Source of the DNA: Bacillus cereus
GTDB lineage: Bacteria; Bacillota; Bacilli; Bacillales; Bacillaceae_G
Direction of reading: 5' to 3'
Length of the DNA: 64,000 bases
Assembly (NCBI RefSeq): GCF_002584535.1
Contig: NZ_NUOT01000008.1
Location: 124,001 to 188,000, forward strand
Shown here: piece by piece, positions 19,994 through 47,633 of the stretch
Layout: each line of letters starts with the position of its first letter
Numbering within the stretch: position 1 is the stretch's first letter
Position numbers and translations under genes: made by a program
Notes under the pieces: generated by a model
Told to the model about the DNA's origin: nothing
Databases searched by the model: none
Seen by the model: only the letters and a program-made list of their open reading frames with translations

Positions 19994-22399
19994 CTACATT
20001 AACATTGTTGGATTAAAGTCGATTGAGATCTGCAAATCTTTTTGCATTTCTGCCTGATAATGTTCATTTACCATTTTAAGCACGTACTTTAAGTTTGGTT
20101 CCCGCTTGTATTTTATCATGCATTGGTATCGATATCTATCTTTTATCCTTGGAATTGCTGAAGCAACCGGTCCTAACACCATTGTTTGCTGTGAGCAATG
20201 CGTTCGTAAATAACCGACAATTTTTTCCGTTACTTGAACTGCTTTTAATAACTCTGGATGTGAAACGGTTACAAGTGCGACATAGTAATACGGCGGGTAT
20301 TGCCTCATTTTTCTCATTTGCATTTCTTGTTCAAAAAATACATCGTACTGCTGATTCTTTGCCAGTTCTACGCTATAATGTTCTGGCGTATATGTTTGAA
20401 TCACTACTTCTCCTGGTAATTCATGTCGACCTGCACGTCCACTCACCTGTGTCAATAACTGATACGTCTTCTCGCTTGCACGAAAATCCGGTAAATGCAG
20501 CATCGTATCAGCTGTTAAAACACCAACAAGCGTAACCATTGGAAAATCAAGCCCTTTAGCTATCATCTGTGTTCCAAGTAAGATATCAGCTTTCTCTTCA
20601 CCAAAGGCTTTTAATAACTTTTCATGCATTCCTTTGCGACTCGTTGTATCAACATCCATACGAATAACCCTTGCCTCTGGAAATAGCTTTGTAATTTCTT
20701 CTTCTACCTTTTGTGTTCCTGTCCCAAAGAAACGAATATACGAACTGTTACAAGCAGGACAAGCAGTTGGCATACTTTCCTCATAACTACAATAGTGACA
20801 TTTTAAACGATGATTCATTTTATGATAGGTGAGTGATATATCACAGTGTGGACATTGCACGACATAACCACAATCACGACACATGACAAACGTTGAATGG
20901 CCTCTTCGATTTAAAAAAAGAACCATTTGTTCTTTCTTTTCTAACCGGTCCGCTATCTTCTCATAAAGTAACTTGGAAAACATCGATCGATTTCCATCAC
21001 GCAGTTCCTCACGCATGTCAACAATTTCTACTGTTGGCAACGCCTGTTCATTCATACGCTTTTGCATAGTTAGTAGCTCATAAACACCTTTTTTCGCTCT
21101 AGCAAACGATTCCAGTGTCGGTGTTGCACTGCCGAGCACAATTGGACAATTATGATATTGTCCTCGCCAAATCGCAACATCCCTAGCATGATATCTCGGA
21201 TTATCTTCTTGTTTATAACTTGATTCATGTTCTTCATCAATAATAATAATTCCTAAGTTTTCAAATGGAGCAAAAATAGCAGAGCGTGCTCCAACAACAA
21301 CCTTTACTTCTTTTCTTAAAATTTTTCGCCATTCATCATATTTTTCCCCAACAGAAAGAGCACTATGAAGAACTGCAACTTGCGAGCCAAATCGTCCTTT
21401 AAAACGGTCCACCATTTGTGGTGTTAATGCAATTTCAGGAACGAGTACAATGGCTTCCTTACCTTTTTTTAATACCGCAGCAATGGATTGCAAATACACT
21501 TCTGTTTTACCGCTTCCTGTAACACCATATAGTAAAAACGGATTATATGTTCCATCCTCAATAGATGACAAAATAGGCGTAATCACTTGGTTTTGTTCAT
21601 CTGTGAGCGGAAATGGCTTTGTCTGTTCAAAAGCTTCGTCGTCATATGGGTTACGGTATACTTCAACATACTTTTCTAAAAGCAATCCTTTTTTTACAAG
21701 CGACTTCACAGGTGCATCTGTTATTTGCAGCTCTTCCGTTAATGTTTTTAATGCCACACTGTGATAATTTTCTACAAAATAATAAAGTACATCCTGTTGC
21801 TTTTTACTTTTCAGCTCAAATGCAGCTGCCTCTAATTGTTCCTGTGGCAATTCTGGTTGAACCACTCTTTGTTTCTTCTTTTGCACTTTATCCTTTACTT
21901 TATAGATGACTTCAATCGTTCCATTTACTATCTCTTTTTGAACTGTGCGATACATATGTGGGTGCGCGGCAACTTCTTCCCAATCTATCGCTTCTTTCCC
22001 TTGAAATAAATTACAAATTTCCGGCGCTACTTCTTCTGGTTTATGGAGCTGTAGTCGCTTTTTATAAGTTGCTTTTATTGCAGTTGGAAGCATAACTTGA
22101 AAAGCTGAAATCATATAACATAGCGTTTCATCTGTTAGCCAAAATCCAATTTTTAATAACTCTTCATTTAAAACTGGGGTAACATCTAGTATTTCATACA
22201 ACGCTTTTAACTTCTTACTTTCCACATCAACTGAATCTTTTATTTCAATAATAAAACCTTGTAATTTCCTTGGACCAAACGGAACGACTACACGCATACC
22301 TGTTTGTACAATATCTTCCCATTTCTTAGGGATTATATAATCAAACGGGCGATCTGTTTGCCGTGCCGGTACATCAACAATTACACTTGCAAATTTCAT
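19994..22399 (-). CDS. priA: Primosomal protein N' (PriA helicase)
   Basis: A superfamily 2 helicase of 801 aa that restarts replication at collapsed forks. Residues 1-110 form the 3'-end-binding domain. Walker A GVTGSGKT is at 292-299, followed by DEEH. A zinc-binding insert carries four CxxC pairs in the CRDCGYVVQCPHC, CHYC and CPAC segments. GTQMIAKGLDFP and SGRAGR are the later helicase motifs. The start overlaps the coaBC stop by 4 nt. Confidence 0.97.
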   Translation of the reverse strand: MKFASVIVDVPARQTDRPFDYIIPKKWEDIVQTGMRVVVPFGPRKLQGFIIEIKDSVDVESKKLKALYEILDVTPVLNEELLKIGFWLTDETLCYMISAFQVMLPTAIKATYKKRLQLHKPEEVAPEICNLFQGKEAIDWEEVAAHPHMYRTVQKEIVNGTIEVIYKVKDKVQKKKQRVVQPELPQEQLEAAAFELKSKKQQDVLYYFVENYHSVALKTLTEELQITDAPVKSLVKKGLLLEKYVEVYRNPYDDEAFEQTKPFPLTDEQNQVITPILSSIEDGTYNPFLLYGVTGSGKTEVYLQSIAAVLKKGKEAIVLVPEIALTPQMVDRFKGRFGSQVAVLHSALSVGEKYDEWRKILRKEVKVVVGARSAIFAPFENLGIIIIDEEHESSYKQEDNPRYHARDVAIWRGQYHNCPIVLGSATPTLESFARAKKGVYELLTMQKRMNEQALPTVEIVDMREELRDGNRSMFSKLLYEKIADRLEKKEQMVLFLNRRGHSTFVMCRDCGYVVQCPHCDISLTYHKMNHRLKCHYCSYEESMPTACPACNSSYIRFFGTGTQKVEEEITKLFPEARVIRMDVDTTSRKGMHEKLLKAFGEEKADILLGTQMIAKGLDFPMVTLVGVLTADTMLHLPDFRASEKTYQLLTQVSGRAGRHELPGEVVIQTYTPEHYSVELAKNQQYDVFFEQEMQMRKMRQYPPYYYVALVTVSHPELLKAVQVTEKIVGYLRTHCSQQTMVLGPVASAIPRIKDRYRYQCMIKYKREPNLKYVLKMVNEHYQAEMQKDLQISIDFNPTMLM

Positions 22400-23601
22400 A
22401 CACGATCCTCTTCTAACATTGCTTCAATTTGCATTAAAATTTCATGTGCAACTTCTTTCTTTGTTAAAAGAGGCAATCGAATAATTTCTCCATCTTTTCT
22501 ATACATTGTTACAATATTTGTATCCGTACCAAATCCTGCGCCTTGCGCTTTCACATCATTTGCTACAATCATATTCGCATTTTTTTCACGTAACTTTTTC
22601 GTTGCATATTCTTCTATATTTGTCGTTTCAGCAGCAAAACCGATAAGAAGTTGATGCTCCTTTTTCTCCCCGAGAGTTTTCAAAATATCAATTGTTCTTT
22701 CTAACTCAATAACTGCATCGCCACTTTTCTTTTTCATCTTCTGATCATGCACAAATTTTGGGCGATAATCTGCTACTGCTGCTGTTTTAATAACGACATC
22801 CATAGATCCATAATGTTGCATGACAGCTTCTAACATATCTTGTGCAGATTCTACTTGCACAGTTGTTACATTTACAGGTGGTGTGATTGCAGTTGGACCG
22901 GAAACAAGTATTACATCCGCTCCTAAGTGAGCAGCAACTTCCGCTAGCGCATACCCCATTTTCCCTGAAGAAAAATTCGTCATAAAACGTACTGGATCAA
23001 TCTTCTCACGAGTTGGACCAGCAGTTACTAAAATTTTCTTTCCTTTTAATGGTTTATGTTCTGAAAAAGCTTCTTGTAACCGATTAATAATTGTTTCCGG
23101 TTCCTCTAATCGACCTTTCGCAACATACCCGCATGCTAAAAAACCTTCTCCAGGCTCAATAAATGTATATCCCAATGCTTTTAACGTCATCATATTCTTT
23201 TGAACAATTTTATTTTCATACATATGCACATTCATAGCAGGTGCAATCCAGACTGGAGCTGTAGTAGCTAACAATGTTGTTGTAATCATATCATCAGCAA
23301 TACCATTTGCTAGTTTTCCGATACAATTTGCTGTTGCTGGAGCAACAAGCACAATGTCTGCCCAATCTGCTAAATCAATATGAGCGATAACTGCTGAATC
23401 TTTTTCATCAAATGTATCCGTATATACATCATGGCGAGAAAGCGCTTGAAATGTAAGAGGTGTAACAAATTTCATCGCCGATTCACTCATCATTACTTTT
23501 ACAAGTGCCCCTGCTTGTGTTAATTTACTCGTTAACGCAGCTGCCTTAAAAACAGCGATGCCCCCTGTCACACATAGAAGTATCTTTTTCTCTTTTAGCA
23601 T
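22396..23601 (-). CDS. coaBC: Bifunctional phosphopantothenoylcysteine decarboxylase / phosphopantothenate-cysteine ligase
   Basis: Two successive coenzyme A synthesis steps in one 401-aa protein. The CoaC half (1-185) is a flavoprotein decarboxylase with catalytic H74, PAMN (121-124) and the ACGYVAKGRL lid with C157. The CoaB half (about 188-401) opens LVTAGPTREKIDPVRF and uses CTP. It is first in the coaBC-priA-def-fmt unit and is separated from rpoZ by a terminator, so it should have its own promoter in the 23.6-23.7 kb gap. I could not identify that promoter convincingly. Confidence 0.96.
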   Translation of the reverse strand: MLKEKKILLCVTGGIAVFKAAALTSKLTQAGALVKVMMSESAMKFVTPLTFQALSRHDVYTDTFDEKDSAVIAHIDLADWADIVLVAPATANCIGKLANGIADDMITTTLLATTAPVWIAPAMNVHMYENKIVQKNMMTLKALGYTFIEPGEGFLACGYVAKGRLEEPETIINRLQEAFSEHKPLKGKKILVTAGPTREKIDPVRFMTNFSSGKMGYALAEVAAHLGADVILVSGPTAITPPVNVTTVQVESAQDMLEAVMQHYGSMDVVIKTAAVADYRPKFVHDQKMKKKSGDAVIELERTIDILKTLGEKKEHQLLIGFAAETTNIEEYATKKLREKNANMIVANDVKAQGAGFGTDTNIVTMYRKDGEIIRLPLLTKKEVAHEILMQIEAMLEEDRV

Positions 23602-28747: not shown

Positions 28748-28776
28748 TAACATTTAGTTAGAAAGGAGTGTTCATA

Positions 28777-30486
28777 ATGGCATTCGATGGATTATTTACA
28801 AGAGCGATTACACATGAAATTGCTAATTCTCTTCAAACAGGAAGAATTTCAAAAATATATCAGCCCTCAAAATATGAGATTTTGTTACATATTCGAGCGA
28901 ACGGAAAAAATCAAAAACTGCTTCTTTCCGCACACCCTACATACACACGTATGCATCTTACAAGTCAAGGTTATGATTCACCTGCATTACCACCAATGTT
29001 TTGTATGCTTCTTCGCAAACATTTAGAAGGTGGATTTATTGAGAAAATTGAACAAGTCGATTTAGAACGAATCATTCAAATTACCGTTCGAAGCCGTAAC
29101 GAAATTGGTGACGAATCGTTAAGAACATTAGTGATTGAAATAATGGGTCGTCACAGTAATATTATTTTAGTAGACGCAAAAACGAATATCATTTTAGATA
29201 GCTTAAAGCACGTTTCTTTAGCAGTAAATAGGCATCGTACTGTATATGCTGGCGCAGAATATGTTGCACCACCAGCGCAGCATAAAATCAATCCATTGCA
29301 GATTGAAACACAAGATGAATTTATTAGACCACTAGACTTTTTGGCTGGAAATATGGATAAACAACTCGTCGGAACCTTTATGGGGATTTCGCCACTATTC
29401 GCAAAAGAAGTTGTAAGAAAAGCCGGTATGATAAATGAAAAAGCATTATCAGAAGCATTTTTCACATTACAAAAACCGCTGCAAGCACACCAATATGAGC
29501 CAACAATGATAACGGCAAATGGAAAAGAGTTCTTTTATCTATTCCCGCTCACACATTTAAAAGGTGACGCTAAAACATTCTCATCTGTAAGTGAATTATT
29601 AGATCGATTCTTCTTTGGAAAAGCAGAACGCGACCGTGTAAAACAACAAGCACATGATTTAGAACGATTTATGTACAATGAAAAAACAAAGAACGAAAAG
29701 AAATTAGTTAAATTAAAGAAAACATTACAAGACGCGGGAAAAGCAGATAAATATCAATTATTCGGTGAGCTTCTTACTGCTAACATGTATGCATTAAAAA
29801 AAGGAGATAAAGAAATTGAAGCCGTTAACTACTACGACGAGAATGGTGGAACAGTAAAAATCACGTTAGACCCATTAAAAACACCATCTGAAAATGCACA
29901 ACGTTATTTCCAAAAGTATCAAAAAGCGAAAAATTCTGTTGCAATTGTAGAAGAACAAATCGAAAAAACGAATGAAGAAATCCTTTACTTTGATAGCTTA
30001 CTTCAACAAATGGAAGCTGCTTCTTCAAAAGATATTGAAGAAATCCGCGAAGAATTAGCTGAAGAAGGCTACATGCGTAACCGCAAATTAAAAAACGCAA
30101 AGAAAAAACCGACAAAACCAATATTAGATAAATATATCGCTAGCGATGGAACAGAAATTTTTGTCGGTAAAAATAACAAGCAAAATGACTATTTAACAAC
30201 GAAGTTTGCACGCCGTGATGAAATTTGGTTACATACAAAAGATATTCCTGGTTCTCACGTTGTCATTCGTTCATTAGAACCGACCGAGGAAACTTTGCTA
30301 GAAGCTGCCAAACTTGCTGCTTATTACAGTAAAGCAAAAGATTCTAGTTCTGTTCCTGTAGATTTCACAAAAATTCGCCATGTTAAAAAACCAAGCGGTG
30401 CCAAACTAGGATTTGTTACATATGATAATCAACAAACATTGTATGTAACACCTGATGCTGATACCGTGATGAAATTAAAGGCCTAA
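28777..30486 (+). CDS. rqcH: Ribosome-associated quality control factor RqcH (NFACT family, YloA/FbpA)
   Basis: A 569-aa NFACT protein that binds stalled 50S-peptidyl-tRNA complexes and directs C-terminal alanine tailing with RqcP. It also belongs to the fibronectin-binding FbpA family. NFACT-N spans about 1-210, a helical coiled-coil middle about 285-435, and the NFACT-R domain about 445-569 ([19 protein letters not shown]). The ATG at 28777 follows AAGGAGTG; an ATG three codons earlier is too close to it. Position 97-98 is E-R where B. subtilis has D-R, by my memory. It is monocistronic with its own terminator. Confidence 0.94.
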
Positions 30487-30499
30487 GATTATAGGAAAC

Positions 30500-30537
30500 A
30501 AAAACGCAATGAATATGGGTGATCATTGCGTTTTTTC
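30500..30537 (+). terminator. Terminator of rqcH
   Basis: AAAACGCAATGA and TCATTGCGTTTT form a perfect 12-bp stem with a 10-nt loop and a T6 run, 13 bp after the stop. Confidence 0.92.
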
Positions 30538-30623
30538 TTATAAAATTATATTTCCTGTCTTTCACAAAGACGTTCCCCCCTTATCCCCCTCTATCAAACC
30601 AATATATAATGATAAAAAAAATT

Positions 30624-30693
30624 GACACTTTATATGTTTCGTGTAAAAAAATATAGACACAAACAAGAGTTATATTCCTAAACTTTTAGACAC
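30624..30693 (+). repeat. Three phased GACAC elements upstream of the sigma-54 promoter
   Basis: GACAC occurs at 30624-30628, 30656-30660 and 30689-30693, all in one orientation and spaced 32 and 33 bp (about three helical turns). Two have the longer match GACACTTTAT. The first forms TTGACAC-N12-GTGTAAA. They lie about 65-135 bp before the predicted start, where sigma-54 activators bind. Confidence 0.6.
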
Positions 30694-30732
30694 TTTATGT
30701 AGTAATTATTTCTTATACAAAGAAAATTACAT

Positions 30733-30748
30733 TGGCACAATTATTGCT
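30733..30748 (+). promoter_or_regulatory. Sigma-54 (SigL) -24/-12 promoter
   Basis: TGGCAC-AATTA-TTGCT matches the sigma-54 consensus TGGCAC-N5-TTGCW at every position. The GG and GC doublets are at 30734-30735 and 30746-30747. Predicted start is near 30759, and the peptidase ATG is at 30780. No good SigA -35/-10 pair is closer to the gene. Confidence 0.82.
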
Positions 30749-30779
30749 TTATATAAGGAAGTGAAAGGGAGGAATCAAA

Positions 30780-31847
30780 ATGACTTCAAGAATAAAGAAA
30801 ATACAAGAACAGCTAGATCGATATGGAATAGATGGATTACTCATTACGAAAAAGGAAAATCGCCAGTATGCAACTGGATTTACAGGTAGCGCTGGTACCG
30901 TATTACTATCTGCAACTGAAGCTGTATTCATTACAGATTTCCGCTATGTCGATCAAGCAAAGACACAGGTACAAGAATCTGAAATCATTATGCATAAAGG
31001 AAACATGGAACAAGAGATCGCAAATCATATAACTAAATTAAACATCCAAAGACTAGGAATTGAAGAAAATAATATGACCTTACAACAGTATAGTTCGTTA
31101 AAAAAATATACAAACATCGAACTTGTACAAGTAAGTGAACTAGTAGAAACAATCCGTGCCATTAAGGAAGAATCTGAAATCGAAACAATCAAAATTGCAG
31201 CACGTATCGCTGATGAAGCATTTCAACATATAACAGGATTTCTAAAACCCGGTGTATCTGAATTTGATGTCCGAGATGAATTAGAGTTTTTTATGCGAAA
31301 ACAAGGAGCTTCTTCCTCATCATTTAACATTATCGTAGCTTCTGGAGTCCGTTCTTCTCTTCCTCACGGCGTTGCCACAAATAAGATGATTGAAAACGGA
31401 GATATGGTTACATTAGATTTTGGTGCACTTTACAATGGGTATTGCTCTGATTTAACACGTACTATCGCGATTGGAAGTTACTCCAAAGAATTTGAAAAGA
31501 TATATGGTATTGTATTAGAAGCATTAAAACGAGGAACCGAAGCAATCCGGCCTGGCGAATCAGCAAAAACAATTGATGATGTAACAAGAAATTACATTAC
31601 AGATCACGGTTACGGTGAATACTTTGGTCATTCTACTGGCCATGGCGTTGGATTAGAACTTCATGAACCACTTCGATTATCAAAAGAAAGTAAATCAACT
31701 TTACAGGAAGGAATGGTTGTGACTGTTGAACCAGGTATTTATATCCCTAGCTGGGGTGGCTGTAGAATTGAAGATGATATTGTCATTACAAAAGATGGAC
31801 ATGAAGTAATTACAAAGGCGAATAGAGACCTTATTGTTATAGGCTAA
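30780..31847 (+). CDS. M24 family Xaa-Pro peptidase (aminopeptidase P / prolidase-like)
   Basis: A 355-aa metallopeptidase cleaving peptides at an Xaa-Pro bond. The N-terminal creatinase-like domain is 1-125. The catalytic pita-bread domain has metal ligands D213, D224, H288, E317 and E331, plus H295 in GHSTGHGVGLELHE. There is no signal peptide, so it is cytoplasmic. The ATG follows GGGAGG. Its sigma-54 promoter suggests control by nitrogen or amino-acid (proline or peptide) supply; that is inference. Dipeptidase and aminopeptidase P activity cannot be separated from sequence alone. Confidence 0.92.
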   Translation: MTSRIKKIQEQLDRYGIDGLLITKKENRQYATGFTGSAGTVLLSATEAVFITDFRYVDQAKTQVQESEIIMHKGNMEQEIANHITKLNIQRLGIEENNMTLQQYSSLKKYTNIELVQVSELVETIRAIKEESEIETIKIAARIADEAFQHITGFLKPGVSEFDVRDELEFFMRKQGASSSSFNIIVASGVRSSLPHGVATNKMIENGDMVTLDFGALYNGYCSDLTRTIAIGSYSKEFEKIYGIVLEALKRGTEAIRPGESAKTIDDVTRNYITDHGYGEYFGHSTGHGVGLELHEPLRLSKESKSTLQEGMVVTVEPGIYIPSWGGCRIEDDIVITKDGHEVITKANRDLIVIG

Positions 31848-31858
31848 TAAGAAACTCT

Positions 31859-31902
31859 CCTCTATGTAATGATTCTTTCATTTATCATAGGGGCGTTTTT
31901 TT
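31859..31902 (+). terminator. Terminator of the Xaa-Pro peptidase gene
   Basis: CCTCTATG (31859-31866) pairs with CATAGGGG (31886-31893, one G-U), with a long loop, then CG and T7. It ends a monocistronic transcript. Confidence 0.75.
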
Positions 31903-31980
31903 CTTATTATTCTAACAGGAATTCCTGCCTACATAGAGAAATCTTTCTATAAAGATGTCATTTACTAGGAGGAATTTTGA

Positions 31981-46724: not shown

Positions 46725-47633
46725 CTATTTCCGTAAAACATTTAAGACTTCTTCAAACACTGCTGGAACTGGTGCCTCAAACTCGATATATTCCCCTGTA
46801 CGAGGGTGATCAAATCCTAAGATTCCTGCATGAAGCGCCTGTCCATTTATATCTAACGTCTTTTTCGGACCATATTTCGGATCTCCCGCAATCGGGTATC
46901 CAATATATTTCATATGAACACGAATTTGGTGCGTACGGCCGGTTTCTAAACGACATTCTACAAGTGTAAAATCTTTAAATCGTTCTAACACCTGGAAATG
47001 CGTAACAGCATTCTTCCCATTTTCATCAACCGTCATACTTTGGCGTTCCTTTTTATCACGGCCAATTGGAGCATCAATTGTCCCTTTATCATGTGGAATT
47101 ACACCATGGACGATTGCTTTATATCGTCTTGTTACTGTTTTTTCTACAAGCTGATTTACAAGAGATTCATGTGCCATATCATTTTTAGCAACCATCAATA
47201 AACCAGATGTGTCTTTATCAATACGATGCACAATACCAGGACGCATTACACCGTTAATACCTGATAGATCTGTACAATGATACATTAATCCATTTACAAG
47301 GGTACCACTTGTATGTCCAGGAGCTGGATGTACAACCATACCGCGTGGTTTATTGACAACTAATACATCTGCATCCTCATAATAAATTTCTAAGTTCATA
47401 TCTTCTGCACGAATATCTAGTTCTTCTGGCTCTGGAATTGCTACTGCAATTTCATCTTTTTCTTTTACTTTATAATTCCCTTTAATGGTATTTCCGTTTA
47501 CGGTTACAACACCATCTTTAATCCATTGCTGCACCTGTGTACGTGACCATTCATTATTTACACCTGCAACAAACTTATCAATCCGTTCATTTTTTTGTTC
47601 TTCTGCAACTGTTACTTGTACTACTTCGCTCAT
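46725..47633 (-). CDS. RluA-family 23S rRNA pseudouridine synthase (RluD-like, YlyB)
   Basis: A 302-aa enzyme with an S4 RNA-binding domain (about 14-75) and a pseudouridine synthase domain. The catalytic D139 lies in HRIDKDTSGLL, with GRTHQIRVH further on. It is probably the RluD equivalent modifying helix 69 of 23S rRNA, although substrate assignment within the RluA family is uncertain. It is 4 bp after lspA and cotranscribed with it. Confidence 0.92.
   Translation of the reverse strand: MSEVVQVTVAEEQKNERIDKFVAGVNNEWSRTQVQQWIKDGVVTVNGNTIKGNYKVKEKDEIAVAIPEPEELDIRAEDMNLEIYYEDADVLVVNKPRGMVVHPAPGHTSGTLVNGLMYHCTDLSGINGVMRPGIVHRIDKDTSGLLMVAKNDMAHESLVNQLVEKTVTRRYKAIVHGVIPHDKGTIDAPIGRDKKERQSMTVDENGKNAVTHFQVLERFKDFTLVECRLETGRTHQIRVHMKYIGYPIAGDPKYGPKKTLDINGQALHAGILGFDHPRTGEYIEFEAPVPAVFEEVLNVLRK

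Follow-up and report, generated by a model that had tools for sequence, protein, structure and literature searches.

A predicted sigma-54 transcription unit for an Xaa-Pro peptidase in Bacillus cereus carries tandem inverted repeats shared with activator-linked loci of related bacteria

Introduction

Sigma-54 control of the type of peptidase gene described here is already in print, since Peng et al. (2015, PMC4428206) reported the Bacillus thuringiensis HD73 gene HD73_4161, annotated as "proline dipeptidase", to be sigL-dependent. In the retrieved parts of that paper its promoter is given as TTGGCACGCTATTTGCT, at -32, and its fold change of 103.5 in the sigL comparison is the highest in Table 3. 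A lacZ fusion was made, and the activator was entered as "Unknown"; eight HD73 promoters were tested against their neighbouring activator, and in these passages P4161 is not one of them. The eight HD73 activators, none of which bears the name XprR used below, are all stated to possess the GAFTGA motif, and include PrdR (HD73_1069) and SoxR (HD73_3141) (PMC4428206). For B. cereus ATCC 14579, the text passages of an rpoN study, tables aside, name no dipeptidase. In the open-licence PMC literature, I found no later report of an HD73_4161 activator.

Two other systems are relevant. PrdR of Clostridiales is the activator of proline reductase genes, and its sites are described as inverted TGT and ACA elements 10–12 bp apart (PMC6615313, passages retrieved). 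SoxR of HD73 is a sigma-54 activator of the sox (sarcosine) locus, whose published genes, in the parts of the reports at hand, encode a proline racemase, a dihydrodipicolinate synthase, an aldehyde dehydrogenase and an amino acid carrier. Here, I compare with these systems a B. cereus peptidase gene preceded by a sigma-54 promoter and by three GACAC elements.

Promoter and peptidase gene

The sequence analysed (hereafter referred to as the window) is a 64-kb stretch of a B. cereus contig. The PyrE it encodes is in keeping with the B. cereus group, differing at 5 of 210 positions from PDB chain 3m3h, a protein of a species of this group. The sole exact match to TGGCACN5TTGCW on either strand is TGGCACAATTATTGCT, at positions 30733–30748 of the forward strand, with the GG of the -24 element and the GC of the -12 element both in place; 0.02 such matches are expected, and an exact match is present in 2 of 100 shuffles of the window. 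The original prediction had read this as a full sigma-54 consensus, TGGCAC-N5-TTGCT, lying 32–47 bp ahead of the ATG, and this observation is confirmed, both distances being correct for the ATG at 30780. Allowing up to two mismatches raises the count to 40, where 29 are expected, and only the exact match is therefore informative. Two other sigma-54-like matches, with one mismatch each, are at 21374–21389 (reverse strand) and 47427–47442 (forward strand). The position of the core places the predicted transcript start near 30759.

The promoter is followed by a ribosome binding site, AGGGAGG (30766–30772, forward strand), 7 nucleotides before the start codon of a forward-strand gene (30780–31847) encoding a 355-residue M24 Xaa-Pro peptidase with Pfam Creatinase_N and Peptidase_M24 domains. 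On the basis of the tree described below, it is assigned to the PepB type of the xpr locus. The five M24B metal-ligand motifs (D, D, H, E, E) are found on alignment with the prolidase chain 1pv9, and I presume that D213, D224, H288, E317 and E331 are the metal-binding residues. The NCBIfam PepQ model (archaeal type) gives 313.8 bits, below its cut-off of 630. The product probably cleaves proline-containing peptides.

The upstream gene (28768–30486), which I take to be of the YloA/RqcH type, is followed on the forward strand by a hairpin and T-run (30486–30545, -19.8 kcal/mol), a likely terminator isolating the promoter, and a second likely terminator of the same kind lies 3' of the peptidase gene (31846–31912, forward strand, -19.9 kcal/mol). 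A simple terminator scan, limited to loops of 3–8, reports neither of them. Since a stable hairpin followed by a T-run stands on each flank, the peptidase mRNA is probably a one-gene transcript. That the window would contain no activator gene had also been predicted, and holds: tblastn with three activator types, XprR among them, finds none in the 64 kb (best E 0.43).

Related loci in other genomes

In order to place the peptidase, genome contigs were scanned for relatives, giving 428 stretches of which the best 80 were kept. The best seven of these (L001–L007) encode peptidases 58–64% identical to that of the window, and come from Peribacillus (two), Gottfriedia (three), Neobacillus (one) and one Bacillus sp. 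In all seven, a sigma-54 activator gene lies upstream of the peptidase gene and a EutH-like gene downstream, and a second M24 peptidase gene is encoded between the activator and the window-type peptidase in six. I refer to this arrangement as the xpr locus, to its activator as XprR and to the window-type peptidase as PepB; these names were coined in this analysis. The seven activators are 77–93% identical to that of L003; Pfam was run on the L003 locus and on the L005 activator, the other genes of the seven loci being assigned by sequence likeness.

Two xpr loci show decay. In Peribacillus acanthi (L005), the first peptidase is a short remnant behind the promoter (L005:4862–5004), and in genome G010 PepB is split (L172:4047–4766). 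The gene following PepB in L001–L007 encodes a permease of the EutH family (472 bits in L003; L003:6106–7212, for example); the family is named for ethanolamine, and the substrate at this locus may be another compound.

Among 397 genomes, PepB is found in six (E up to 1e-140), all of which also encode XprR; XprR at an identity of at least 77% is found in nine of 397 genomes in another draw. PepB is absent in genomes G015 and G016. No B. cereus-group locus was found among the best 80 of the 428 genome-contig stretches or among 19 Gottfriedia-family genomes (best identity 64% in each), and a plasmid search with the peptidase DNA found no B. cereus-group source. A tblastn search of plasmids with the activator (E up to 1e-80) gave 14 records, none of the B. 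cereus group by name. Viral contigs likewise yielded no B. cereus-group source, and a search of E. coli genomes with the peptidase DNA gave no match. A 24-kb query gave a single phage match, at window positions 23098–23472, away from the peptidase locus.

Upstream inverted repeats

The GACAC elements had been predicted at 30624, 30656 and 30689, and all three are there, spaced by 32 and 33 bp. They had been described as elements in one orientation, but are not simple direct repeats: each forms the right arm of an inverted repeat 20 bp long, with the consensus GTGTCTA-N6-TAGACAC. A search of the window for GACAC-N26-29-GACAC found two occurrences, both upstream of the peptidase gene, against 0.23 expected; two were seen in 1 of 100 shuffles.

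The main predicted activator site, GTGTAAAAAAATATAGACAC (30641–30660, forward strand), departs from the consensus at 2 of 14 arm positions; its TGT starts 91 bp before the TGG of the promoter and its centre is at about -108. The second, ATTCCTAAACTTTTAGACAC (30674–30693, forward strand; 3 of its 14 arm positions deviate from the consensus), has a perfect right arm and a degenerate left one, with a core starting 58 bp before the TGG and a centre at about -75. A third, degenerate site, ATGATAAAAAAAATTGACAC (30609–30628, forward strand), lies 32 bp above the main one, centred at about -140, with a good right arm and a poor left arm. All three centres, as counted from the predicted start, fall in the range over which a bound activator could loop to the promoter. 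Speaking against the assignment, the 30674 site is weak in its left arm and the 30609 site throughout.

The same geometry is found at the xpr loci. Each of ten xpr-locus promoters, one per genome, combines a sigma-54 core with a pair of inverted repeats spaced by 33 bp, and in all ten the repeats start 90–92 and 57–59 bp before the TGG, the best match being taken within 86–95 and 53–62 bp upstream only. An unrestricted search of 170 bp at four loci (L171–L174) places them at 90–91 and 57–58 bp. The window thus has the tandem repeats of the xpr loci, 33 bp apart and at equivalent distances, with a degenerate left arm in the second. Two pattern searches for further xpr-like targets in 10 genomes gave 34 matches, nine of them being the own loci of the nine XprR genomes; the other 25 lie elsewhere, three of these preceding proline-catabolism genes (L201–L203).

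I then scored the window with a weight matrix trained on other genomes only (19 distinct sites, scoring 16.2–26.2). Among all window positions, the 30641 site ranks first, with a score of 22.1 that is within the training range, the 30674 site fifth and the 30609 site 16th. The 30641/30674 tandem is the best pair in the window, with a score of 33.0, a value that none of 60 Markov sequences as long as the window reaches (maximum 14.3). When the training set is limited to three genomes, first place still goes to the main site and to the pair, and the 30674 and 30609 sites drop to ranks 12 and 22. As a control, 50 sigma-54-like sites at 35 loci of related non-Xpr activators, which are pattern matches near gene starts and not all proven promoters, were scored at the same positions, giving at most 7.8 against 32.6 for the window.

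These scores bear on a more ordinary explanation, in which the GACAC repeats arise by chance in AT-rich DNA and a SigA promoter drives the gene. A TTGACA does occur within the 30609 site, but a scan for SigA-type promoters reports none on the forward strand in the interval from the upstream gene to the ATG, its 8 matches in the scanned stretch are what chance would give (8.3), and the tandem score is beyond every one of the 60 Markov sequences; I consider this explanation very improbable. It could also be that the promoter is real and the repeats are a decaying relic, a different activator now being in use, as the presence of only one repeat strong on both arms might suggest. However, the repeat positions, 91 and 58, are kept to the base, the two sites rank first and fifth in 64 kb, and the likely orthologue HD73_4161 is strongly sigL-dependent in the data retrieved (PMC4428206), so that a relic appears unlikely.

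Peptidase phylogeny

Among 115 M24 proteins placed in a tree, the seven xpr-locus PepB sequences form one set with the protein of the window, with an SH-aLRT of 100; this is a quick tree without bootstrap, in which the window branch (0.49) is flagged as long with a warning of long-branch joins between deep groups. The PepB side of the tree has 91 other rows, of which 74 are tagged as efp neighbours on the basis of a loose start motif; the remaining 17 are untagged. The window peptidase groups apart from a mostly efp-linked paralogue.

The original prediction had considered it odd for a housekeeping-type peptidase to be under SigL. The tree speaks against a housekeeping peptidase, placing the window protein with a paralogue whose tree members all (seven of seven) come from activator-linked loci. 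Nor is SigL control new for this type of gene, a B. thuringiensis gene of the same annotation and promoter geometry having been reported as sigL-dependent in 2015.

Activator family

Pfam identifies a PAS, an AAA+ and a Fis-type DNA-binding domain in XprR (L003 and L005). The best NCBIfam match is the PrdR equivalog NF041552, at 533.4 and 543.7 bits, below its curated cut-off of 795 bits, and nine related activators score 509–542 bits on the same model. A structure prediction for XprR, made with seven sequences, has a mean pLDDT of 49.7, and is fair only over residues 1–110 and parts of the last 130. A comparison of the XprR profile with the PDB gives 35 sequences, the best of which match over the AAA+ part, with some of these matches running on to the C-terminal end.

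Forty loci around XprR relatives were typed by motif as xpr (5), hydroxyproline (20), proline-dehydrogenase (7) and other (8). The hydroxyproline-type activators are 44–51% identical to XprR and have proline-racemase-family genes nearby; those of the proline-dehydrogenase type are 39–44% identical. The neighbours in L188 match models for proline racemase/4-hydroxyproline epimerase, DapA and alpha-ketoglutaric-semialdehyde dehydrogenase, and those in L206 models for P5C dehydrogenase and proline dehydrogenase; of these matches, only those to DapA and P5C dehydrogenase attain the model cut-offs. The link to proline or peptide supply that had been proposed fits this picture, as the activator's relatives adjoin proline- and hydroxyproline-type catabolic genes.

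Several hydroxyproline-type promoters carry a looser repeat of similar form at other distances, with a best score of 20.0, while at proline-dehydrogenase-type loci the repeat score never exceeds 10.0. L175, which was left out of both training and control sets, encodes an activator 53% identical to XprR, a first peptidase and a EutH-like gene, but no PepB, and has a weak repeat (11.9). GAFSGA replaces the usual GAFTGA of the loop that contacts sigma-54 in the XprR proteins of L003 (1880–3565), L001 (2003–3694) and L005 (3049–4731), and in the hydroxyproline-type activators of L195 (5276–7006) and L180 (5165–6868); the L206 activator carries GAFTGA.

The hydroxyproline-type loci raise the question of whether a SoxR-type activator of such a locus took over the peptidase, which would switch the release of hydroxyproline or proline from peptides together with its catabolism. 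These activators (20 loci) have helix-turn-helix ends similar to that of XprR in addition to the identity given above, and TGTnTA-N6-TAnACA-like repeats occur in several of their promoters. The published B. thuringiensis sox genes, as far as retrieved, also resemble this type of locus. Against it, the inverted repeat of the window is missing from the published SoxR footprint, AAAATATTTTTTACAAATAAAAATATTTT (PMC4941409, passages retrieved), for which reason SoxR is disfavoured, and the pair at 91 and 58 is found at none of the 50 non-Xpr sigma-54-like sites. A takeover of this kind is possible, if somewhat doubtful.

Separately, the HD73 sox gene set, as published in the parts retrieved, resembles L188:610–10815 and similar loci with proline racemase/4-hydroxyproline-epimerase, DapA-like and semialdehyde-dehydrogenase genes, and the sox locus may therefore serve hydroxyproline as well as sarcosine.

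Discussion

I consider it quite probable that the window gene is a unit of an XprR-type regulon, on whose repeats a PrdR-like activator would act from outside the window. The promoter, the sites, their geometry, the relationship of the peptidase and the gene order in relatives are read directly from sequence. The proposed mechanism is as follows. A one-gene sigma-54 transcription unit would encode an intracellular Xaa-Pro peptidase (PepB). An activator of the XprR type (PAS, AAA+ and Fis-type helix-turn-helix; PrdR-like superfamily) would bind 30641–30660 and 30674–30693, with 30609–30628 as a weak third site. In response to its signal, which is probably proline, hydroxyproline or a peptide that includes them, it would loop to the SigL-RNA polymerase at 30733–30748 and open the promoter. 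From these features I infer the identity of the activator, its binding and looping, the signal and the substrate; the signal is suggested by the genes that neighbour related activators.

Because the peptidase gene stands alone between likely terminators, with its enhancer and promoter kept, the activator would have to act in trans, from elsewhere in the genome. Its kind is suggested by the related bacteria, which encode a sigma-54 activator right beside the peptidase gene, and in the B. cereus group a PrdR-like protein probably fills this role. The published HD73 list offers PrdR (HD73_1069) and SoxR (HD73_3141) as the leading candidates. All eight HD73 activators are stated, in the passages retrieved, to possess GAFTGA, whereas the XprR sequences checked have GAFSGA; taken literally, that statement disfavours a strict XprR orthologue in this strain. 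The activator need not be a strict orthologue, given that the hydroxyproline-type loci carry a similar, looser repeat.

I lean slightly towards a fuller account, in which the peptidase gene stands apart from its activator-linked locus, has preserved its enhancer and promoter to the exact base (91 and 58), and is controlled in trans by an orphan PrdR-like activator that senses proline, hydroxyproline or their peptides. If so, the open question of the HD73_4161 activator would be solved, and in the B. cereus group the breakdown of peptides would be linked with catabolism of the proline type. It would also document a target gene that is separated from its sigma-54 activator and retains the geometry of its enhancer. 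An activator family is suggested by the conserved repeats and their arrangement, which leave a short list of PrdR, SoxR or an unrecognised XprR orthologue.

Of the original interpretation, several points are supported, namely a sigma-54 promoter, activator sites ahead of it, an activator gene located elsewhere and the link to proline or peptides. The housekeeping peptidase and the one-orientation repeats are not. The site architecture and the activator family are new here, no prior description having been found in the open-licence PMC literature.

Among the known systems, PrdR of Clostridiales provides the NCBIfam model closest to XprR, and the 12-bp spacing of the window and xpr repeats is within that described for PrdR sites (PMC6615313, passages retrieved). 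XprR differs from PrdR in scoring below the family cut-off and in its target, a peptidase locus and not proline reductase. SoxR of HD73 is also a sigma-54 activator beside proline-racemase-type genes, but its published footprint, in the parts of the report at hand, is unlike GTGTCTA-N6-TAGACAC (PMC4941409). The xpr locus shares with the window a sister peptidase, a sigma-54 promoter and the pair of inverted repeats some 91 and 58 bp ahead of the TGG; it differs in its adjacent activator, second M24 peptidase (six of seven loci) and EutH-like gene, whereas the window gene stands alone and its promoter has a third, weak site. Finally, HD73_4161 is, as described in the retrieved parts of PMC4428206, a single gene with a proline dipeptidase annotation and no assigned activator, and its promoter has TTGGCAC-N5-TTGCT with the -12 element standing 32 bp ahead of the start codon, where the window has TTGGCACAATTATTGCT at -32, although 4 of the 5 spacer bases differ. 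Judging by this description of its annotation, promoter and distance, HD73_4161 is likely the orthologue of the window gene.
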